Source: Ideonella sp. A 288 (GTDB taxonomy: Bacteria > Pseudomonadota > Gammaproteobacteria > Burkholderiales > Burkholderiaceae_C). Taken from it: a stretch of 57,490 nucleotides of DNA. The DNA is taken from the NCBI RefSeq assembly GCF_002198735.1, contig NZ_MWLO01000105.1, positions 1 to 57,490 on the forward strand. The letters run 5' to 3'. The notes under the pieces were generated by a model. That model did not search any database and had not been told where the DNA came from. It worked only from the letters and a program-made list of their open reading frames with translations. The translations under genes were made by a program, and so were the position numbers. This document shows, one piece after another, positions 50,533 to 51,749 of this stretch; within the stretch, counting starts at the first letter, position 1; each line of letters begins with the position of its first letter.

Positions 50533-50601
50533 CCGGCCAGCCGACTTGGCAGACGGTCATTCCGGTGCCCTGGGAAGGGCCATTGGACGGGGGTGCGTGA
50601 A

Positions 50602-50617
50602 CTGTATATATTCACAG
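50602..50617. promoter_or_regulatory. LexA (SOS) operator
   Basis: CTGTATATATTCACAG fits the LexA consensus CTGT-N8-ACAG, and the flanking bases extend the symmetry to ACTGT/ACAGT. The centre is AT-rich in an otherwise GC-rich region and contains a -10-like TATATT (50607-50612). It ends one base before the ATG at 50619, so bound LexA would block both polymerase and the start site. Confidence 0.85.
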
Positions 50618-50618
50618 T

Positions 50619-51749
50619 ATGCGCACCGTGCCAATCGTTCCCGTTCCGTCCCAGCCCATGGGAGCGCCGGCCGAGCCGGTCAAGGGACGCGGCACGGGCT
50701 GGAACCTGCCCCATCGCTTCGAGCGCGTGCAGCGCGAGCCGGTCGACGACGGCTGGGGCGAGGTCGAGCAGGCCGTGCAGAGCGATGTGGTGCCGCCGCA
50801 GACCCAGGTGCTCGAAGAGCGCGTCAAGTCCATCCTGGCCAGCAACGATTCGCCCGACATCGGCTTCGACCTGTCGATCAACCCCTACCGGGGCTGTGAG
50901 CATGGGTGCATCTACTGCTACGCGCGCCCCACGCACAGCTACCTGAACCTCTCGCCCGGGCTCGATTTCGAGACCCGCATCGTCGCCAAGGTGAATGCCG
51001 CGCAGCGCCTGCGCGAGGCCTTCATGGCGCCGGGCTACGAGCCGCAGATGCTCAACATCGGCTCCGTCACCGACGCCTACCAGCCGGCCGAACGCCGCAT
51101 GCGCATCACCCGCGGCGTGATCGAGGTGATGAGCGAGTTCTCGCATGGCTTTTCGCTGCTCACCAAGTCGTCGGGTGTCGAGCGCGACCTCGACCTCATC
51201 GCGCCGATGGCCGAGCAGCGCCTGGCCGCGGTCTACGTGTCGATCACCACGCTCGATGCCGCGCTGGCGCGGGTGCTCGAACCCCGTGCTGCGTCGCCCG
51301 AGCGGCGGCTGCGCACCATCCGCACGCTGGCGCAGGCCGGCGTGCCGGTGGGCGTGAGCGTGTCGCCGGTGATCCCGTTCATCAATGAACCCGAGCTCGA
51401 ACGCATCCTCGAAGCCGCGCGCGACGCGGGTGCGTCGTCGGCGTTTTCGATCGTGCTGCGCCTGCCCTGGGAGGTGAACCCGCTGTTCCAGCAGTGGCTG
51501 CAGCAGCACTTCCCCGAGCGCGCCGATCGGGTGATGGCGCGGGTGCGCGAGATGCGCGGGGGCCGCGACAACGATAGCCAGTTCGGCAGCCGCATGACCG
51601 GGCAGGGCATCTGGGCCAGCCTGCTGCGCCAGCGTTTCGACAAGGCCACGCGGCGGTTGGGGCTGCAGAACGACCGTGCGGGACTCGACCTCAGCCGCTT
51701 CCGGCGGCCTGCTGTGCGGGGTGATGAGCGGCAGGGCCGCCTGTTCTGA
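50619..51749 (+). CDS. Radical SAM protein of the PA0069/SplB-like family, under a LexA box
   Basis: A 376-residue radical SAM protein with cluster cysteines C93, C97 and C100 (GCEHGCIYCYARPTH) and the surrounding DLSINPYRGC and NIGSVTDAYQPAE motifs of the PA0069 family, which is related to spore photoproduct lyase (SplB, COG1533). The substrate is unknown. The N-terminal part (KGRGTGWNLPHRFE, about 22-36) is family-typical. ATG 50619 directly abuts an SOS operator and has no room for a Shine-Dalgarno sequence; ATG 50658 is an alternative start that keeps all conserved parts. It is convergent with the receiver-TPR gene. Confidence 0.88.
   Translation: MRTVPIVPVPSQPMGAPAEPVKGRGTGWNLPHRFERVQREPVDDGWGEVEQAVQSDVVPPQTQVLEERVKSILASNDSPDIGFDLSINPYRGCEHGCIYCYARPTHSYLNLSPGLDFETRIVAKVNAAQRLREAFMAPGYEPQMLNIGSVTDAYQPAERRMRITRGVIEVMSEFSHGFSLLTKSSGVERDLDLIAPMAEQRLAAVYVSITTLDAALARVLEPRAASPERRLRTIRTLAQAGVPVGVSVSPVIPFINEPELERILEAARDAGASSAFSIVLRLPWEVNPLFQQWLQQHFPERADRVMARVREMRGGRDNDSQFGSRMTGQGIWASLLRQRFDKATRRLGLQNDRAGLDLSRFRRPAVRGDERQGRLF

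Follow-up and report, generated by a model that had tools for sequence, protein, structure and literature searches.

A predicted LexA operator adjoining the start codon of a PA0069-family radical SAM gene of Ideonella, whose product resembles spore photoproduct lyase in fold but lacks its catalytic cysteine

LexA control of radical S-adenosylmethionine (SAM) genes has been described in several groups of bacteria. A study from 2012 predicted, from two divergent motifs, that LexA controls 'splB' in alpha- and betaproteobacteria and, in its relevant section, interprets this as photoreactivation and as the first such case (PMC3323433); GTTC-N7-GTTC is given there as the LexA motif of alphaproteobacteria and CTGT-N8-ACAG as that of most beta- and gammaproteobacteria. 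SplB-like radical SAM genes were placed in SOS operons in 2013 (PMC3765255), and in 2021 the relevant part of a further report lists SplB (COG1533) among the genes under SOS control in a number of species, with Bacteroidetes added (PMC8565304). In Streptomyces venezuelae the radical SAM gene vnz_31145 is bound by LexA in chromatin immunoprecipitation sequencing and is induced 19.97-fold by mitomycin C, according to the part of a 2022 study that deals with it (PMC9380542). Here we analyse a stretch of 57,490 nucleotides (nt) from Ideonella sp. A 288 (contig NZ_MWLO01000105.1; hereafter the window), in which a putative LexA operator directly precedes the gene for a PA0069-family radical SAM protein. 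The LexA link of the gene is already published and its regulation is not a discovery; what is added is a lyase-like fold without the corresponding family match or donor cysteine, and an operator fused to the start codon in the window's clade.

The sequence CTGTATATATTCACAG at 50602-50617 matches CTGT-N8-ACAG exactly and is followed by a single T at 50618 and the ATG of the radical SAM gene at 50619, which confirms the initial annotation's near-perfect LexA box one base before the ATG. Its description as an AT-rich island in a GC-rich region also holds, 11 of the 16 bases being A or T, a composition attained by 0.14% of 16-mers in a window of 68% GC. This is the single exact site in the window. 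The looser pattern is not enriched there, since eight sites with at most one mismatch are found against 15.9 expected, and in the genome as a whole (6.98 Mb) the exact pattern occurs 22 times and the backwards pattern 10 times, so that the exact match by itself is weak evidence. The case for a LexA operator is carried by position and conservation.

Conservation was followed among the best 80 of 594 relatives from public genomes, mainly Burkholderiales and Pseudomonas, searched from -200 to +70 of the expected start. An exact CTGT-N8-ACAG box is present in 57 of these 80 loci, against a mean of 0.11 and a maximum of 2 in dinucleotide shuffles; gene-body windows gave 0/80 twice, the reversed pattern one match and the N7 and N9 spacings none. 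Nine more loci have a box with one mismatch within -90 to +60, and one, from a Hyphomonadaceae metagenome-assembled genome, has GTTC-N7-GTTC. Neither box type was found in the other 13, Rhodanobacter and Dyella (L199-L201) among them. All eight Pseudomonas and Stutzerimonas loci carry the exact box.

The motif before the gene changes with the class of the host. From a draw across the phylum (398 genomes, 171 over the cut-off) 112 genomes belong, by our own count, to classes other than the window's, and 70 of these loci were examined, the 30 best and 40 spread over families. Exact GTTC-N7-GTTC precedes the gene in 65 of the 70, in one constant orientation (shuffles, mean 0.69 and maximum 4; gene-body windows, 0), with GTTC-N6-GTTC and GTTC-N8-GTTC found once each and CTTG-N7-CTTG four times, and CTGT-N8-ACAG is found before none of the 70. 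Motif and family spread suggest that these loci are alphaproteobacterial. The operator is thus apparently the one that suits the LexA of the host. In a tree of 261 proteins (FastTree, many weak forks) 36 changes suffice to explain the four box states, compared with a mean of 125 when shuffled. The SOS switch before the gene looks both real and old.

The host itself encodes LexA (222.5 bits). A family search of the genes that follow the 22 exact sites tied four of them to genes: imuA starts 7 nt after its box, dnaE2 22 nt and a full-length integron integrase 12 nt (box at contig C22, 69483-69498, L036), and a truncated integron integrase frame that falls below the family cut-off follows at 49 nt (box at contig C73, 882-897, L127). 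Besides these four and the radical SAM site, the other 17 are without a gene assignment; recA and lexA are each preceded by a one-mismatch box. The host therefore has an ordinary LexA system with the CTGT-N8-ACAG motif, and the radical SAM gene has what is expected of a member of the LexA regulon: an operator near the gene start, an encoded LexA, the same motif at other SOS genes and conservation in orthologues.

A promoter scan returned a single candidate in the region, TGGACG-17-TATATT at 50584-50612, with 9 of 12 consensus matches (mean in shuffles, 0.0), the -10-like hexamer lying within the operator (Table 1). At 77 box-bearing loci the first in-frame ATG or GTG follows the box by 1 nt in 15, by 2-3 nt in six and by 7-187 nt in the others, the 15 being the window locus, 13 of its nearest relatives and L185. 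In these 15 the box core can be read as a -10 element, and 17 bases further up there is a recurrent T-[TG]-G triplet (T in 11/15, T or G in 15/15, G in 12/15). The A of the ATG is seven bases past the -10, and no Shine-Dalgarno sequence fits between box and ATG. With the -10 inside the operator, the predicted transcription start coinciding with the ATG and no Shine-Dalgarno sequence, the SOS transcript would be leaderless or nearly so; this suggests an mRNA whose operator, -10 element and start codon overlap, in the window's clade only, related clades having longer and variable spacings between box and start.

Table 1. Features of the radical SAM locus in the window.
Feature	Position	Strand	Remarks
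-35-like hexamer TGGACG	50584..50589	+	17 bases before the -10; predicted function
LexA operator (SOS box) CTGTATATATTCACAG	50602..50617	+	exact CTGT-N8-ACAG; overlaps the -10 element; kept in relatives
-10-like hexamer TATATT	50607..50612	+	within the LexA operator; predicted function
PA0069-family radical SAM protein, 376 amino acids	50619..51749	+	NF033668, 457.8 bits; Radical_SAM PF04055
CxxxCxxC [4Fe-4S]/SAM motif, C93, C97, C100	50895..50918	+	only cysteines of the protein
Codon of S149, site matched to catalytic Cys141 of the B. subtilis lyase	51063..51065	+	motif spacing, shared T-D motif

The protein scores above the cut-off of 360 bits for the NCBIfam 'PA0069 family radical SAM protein', and the gene is the genome's single match to that family. 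The general Radical_SAM domain is its only Pfam match at E <= 0.001, the Pfam SPL (spore photoproduct lyase) family giving none at that threshold. The label 'PA0069/SplB-family' of the initial annotation therefore conflates two families, of which the first stands and the second does not. The Rv2578c family (NF038135) is a clear relative, at 212.2 bits (E 9e-63), though this is far under its cut-off of 430 bits and the window protein does not belong to it. C93, C97 and C100 are cysteine in 261/261 relatives. Polar residues that do not vary include R103, H106, D116, E118, K124, T151, D152, Q155, E158, K183, E221 and R223.

Spore photoproduct lyase (PDB 4fhc, 4k9r and mutants) is the closest solved fold, the two sharing the radical SAM core and the C-terminal part. 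When the PDB was searched with a sequence profile, no spore photoproduct lyase came up at E <= 1, the best match being SkfB (E 0.001), so the link to the lyase is by fold only. Against three SPL sequences, profile-profile comparison gave an alignment of residues of about 194-295 only (probability 81.6), and S149 was therefore set against Cys141 of the Bacillus subtilis lyase by eye, from the T-D motif. Although C141 is essential in B. subtilis, as the relevant part of PMC3742179 reports, cysteine is found at the matching site in 0/261 relatives. The window protein has only its three cluster-ligand cysteines, as do 29 of the 261 relatives, and the cysteine hydrogen donor of the lyase is therefore absent. 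In B. subtilis the pair Y97 and Y99 flanks the third cluster cysteine and the window protein has tyrosine at both sites; the first (Y99 in the window's numbering) is tyrosine in all 261 relatives, and the second, that of the radical-relaying Y99 of B. subtilis, is phenylalanine in 165 and tyrosine in 96. Membership of the window protein in the true SPL family is rejected, both by the missing cysteine and by the lack of a match to the Pfam model, and, as far as its residues tell, the known chemistry of spore photoproduct lyase does not fit it. Among 299 genomes from the phylum, true SPL (PF20903 over cut-off) was found in five, all of one genus and all also with a PA0069 gene; the Ideonella genome has no PF20903 match. 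One genus has two kinds of Pfam SPL gene (L344, L345 and L346; L350, L351, L352, L347 and L348), and in the shorter kind, going by L350, the C141 site is not occupied by cysteine.

Taken together, it is probable that 50602-50617 is a working LexA operator and that it governs an SOS-induced PA0069-family enzyme that is like the lyase but is not one. The box, its position, its conservation, the fold resemblance and the missing cysteine are read from the sequence, and from them LexA binding, induction, a leaderless transcript and the kind of substrate are predicted. In an undamaged cell LexA on the operator would hide both the -10 and the start codon and keep the gene off. Upon DNA damage, RecA-driven self-cleavage of LexA would free the promoter, and RNA polymerase would initiate on the A of the ATG or on a neighbouring base, giving a short-leader or leaderless mRNA for an enzyme built like spore photoproduct lyase yet without the hydrogen-returning cysteine. 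With that cysteine missing, the 5'-deoxyadenosyl radical would most likely be used on another DNA lesion or on another nucleic-acid or nucleotide substrate of stressed cells.

Several observations weigh against this reading. About half of the 22 exact sites of the genome may be chance matches. The substrate step has regulation and fold as its only basis, and gene neighbours are common to the loci only as clade-level synteny, with none that would indicate a pathway: once frames that overlap the gene are set aside, the most widespread cluster of neighbours reaches at most 17 of the 80 near-relative loci (frames of at least 120 amino acids), and the LexA box is the sole recurring feature found adjoining the gene. 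The most direct counterweight comes from a deeper gammaproteobacterial draw of 369 genomes, in which 133 had a PA0069-family match, 117 were over the cut-off and 111 were examined, the other six being at a contig edge (G051, G062, G362, G366), split (G085) or interrupted by an internal stop (G314). Here the exact box is found in only 12/111 loci, its end lying at -2 to +36 relative to the expected start in every one, and a box with at most one mismatch within -90 to +60 in 19/111 (four control windows, 1, 0, 1 and 2), so that LexA regulation of the gene is a minority trait at gammaproteobacterial depth; motifs of other groups gave 0 or 1 match each. In at least 25 of the 111 genomes the gene is present although no LexA match exceeds the family cut-off; none of these has the box, and the enzyme would therefore be useful without SOS. 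LexA control with conservation across classes, as the initial annotation had proposed together with a scan for the box upstream of orthologues, is thus upheld by the enrichment among near relatives and in the other classes sampled, and not as a universal property.

All 12 box-bearing gammaproteobacterial genomes have LexA over the cut-off, an association that is not significant at the curated cut-off (12/86 versus 0/25, p = 0.065); at a threshold of 189 bits, picked post hoc, it becomes 12/59 versus 0/52 (p = 0.0003), on which no conclusion was rested. For 53 of the 111 genomes the box was compared with that of lexA: where lexA has an exact box (14 genomes), the box at the radical SAM gene is exact in five and has one mismatch in three, and six genomes have an exact box here but not before the nearest lexA match. 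PA0069-family matches with stops or split frames occur in G027, G108, G314, G364 and G174, which suggests that the gene has been lost in some lineages.

The 22 exact sites in the genome, set against 10 of the control pattern, would be compatible with a box that is a chance match, but the conservation in relatives far above shuffles, the switch of motif with class and the constant 1-nt spacing to the ATG in 15 loci make this most improbable. It might also be that the true start codon is a later one, such as M14, behind an ordinary leader, the mRNA then not being leaderless: conservation is poor up to about residue 20, and the predicted local distance difference test score of the structure model is below 50 for residues 1-56. 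Against this stands the ATG placed exactly 1 nt after the box in 15/77 box-bearing loci, nearly all close relatives, and we regard a downstream start as unlikely.

For the enzyme, a true photolesion repair enzyme of the spore-photoproduct-lyase type, drawing its hydrogen from a donor other than the cysteine, would agree with the closest solved fold, with the invariant Y97-equivalent tyrosine and with the interpretation of the gene as UV-lesion repair in the relevant parts of PMC3323433 and PMC9380542; one PA0069-family gene (G563) even gives a weak Pfam SPL match (20.3 bits against a cut-off of 27). Such an enzyme seems decidedly unlikely given that no relative has the cysteine, that the window protein and 29 relatives have cluster cysteines alone, that the radical-relay site is mostly phenylalanine and that genomes with true SPL keep the PA0069 gene beside it. 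Somewhat less unlikely is an SOS-induced enzyme whose substrate is RNA, a nucleotide, a peptide or a metabolite rather than a DNA lesion. Some fold matches favour it, though spore photoproduct lyase scores 4 Z units above them, and the neighbouring frames of at least 120 amino acids included no conserved gene of the kind expected, for example one for a precursor peptide.

Extending the reading of an SOS-induced, lyase-like enzyme to the whole PA0069 family, we would tentatively suggest, as a possibility, a widespread SOS-induced form of radical SAM repair, in which hydrogen is returned by something other than cysteine and the lesion is one with no known direct-reversal enzyme, the mRNA in the window's clade being leaderless since operator, -10 element and start codon are merged. 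Should the enzyme represent a second type of radical SAM DNA repair, many bacteria of soil and water and many associated with plants would carry a damage-induced direct reversal for a lesion as yet unnamed. The operators offer a direct handle, as they indicate the timing of enzyme synthesis, and the lack of the cysteine shows which known chemistry need no longer be assumed. As the enzyme is by its own residues not a spore photoproduct lyase, its substrate becomes a testable question. The window's clade is also a neat case of an operator fused with a start codon.

At the locus itself, the frame upstream on the same strand ends 86 bases before the gene, and we take it to be the replicative helicase DnaB. 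The next downstream frame of comparable length that we take as a gene lies on the opposite strand, and the radical SAM gene therefore probably stands alone. Among plasmid- and phage-borne relatives (five loci) no strict LexA motif was found; in a Nonomuraea locus GAAC-N4-GTTC lies 145 nt ahead of the stretch that matched. A PA0069-family gene on a plasmid of Legionella adelaidensis (L356, 2320-5068) is divergent from polX, with none of six LexA motifs before it. Distant relatives occur in Acidianus bicaudaviruses and, under the name 'radical SAM mobile pair protein B', on Bacteroides plasmids.

The listing of PA0069 in the Pseudomonas aeruginosa LexA regulon, put forward in the initial annotation, could not be confirmed, as no paper naming both PA0069 and LexA was found in the literature searched; one study used PA0069 as a chromosome tag site. 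A limited literature search likewise showed no link of Rv2578c to LexA. We infer that the published 'splB' and vnz_31145 belong to the PA0069/Rv2578c families. As far as the relevant parts of PMC3323433 and PMC8565304 describe it, their 'splB' is, like the gene here, a radical SAM gene with class-specific LexA boxes, and the betaproteobacterial genera of the former (Burkholderia, Cupriavidus and Variovorax) are among our box-bearing relatives. That part of PMC3323433 reports no such regulation in gammaproteobacteria, whereas we find the exact box in every Pseudomonas and Stutzerimonas locus among the near relatives. vnz_31145 is likened to the window gene by its description as a LexA-bound radical SAM gene, though its LexA motif is actinobacterial. 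Finally, 'splB' is presented in PMC3323433 and PMC8565304 as a spore photoproduct lyase homologue, while the window gene is of the PA0069 family and lacks the lyase cysteine; the 'splB' of proteobacterial SOS lists should accordingly not be taken as a proven photoproduct lyase.
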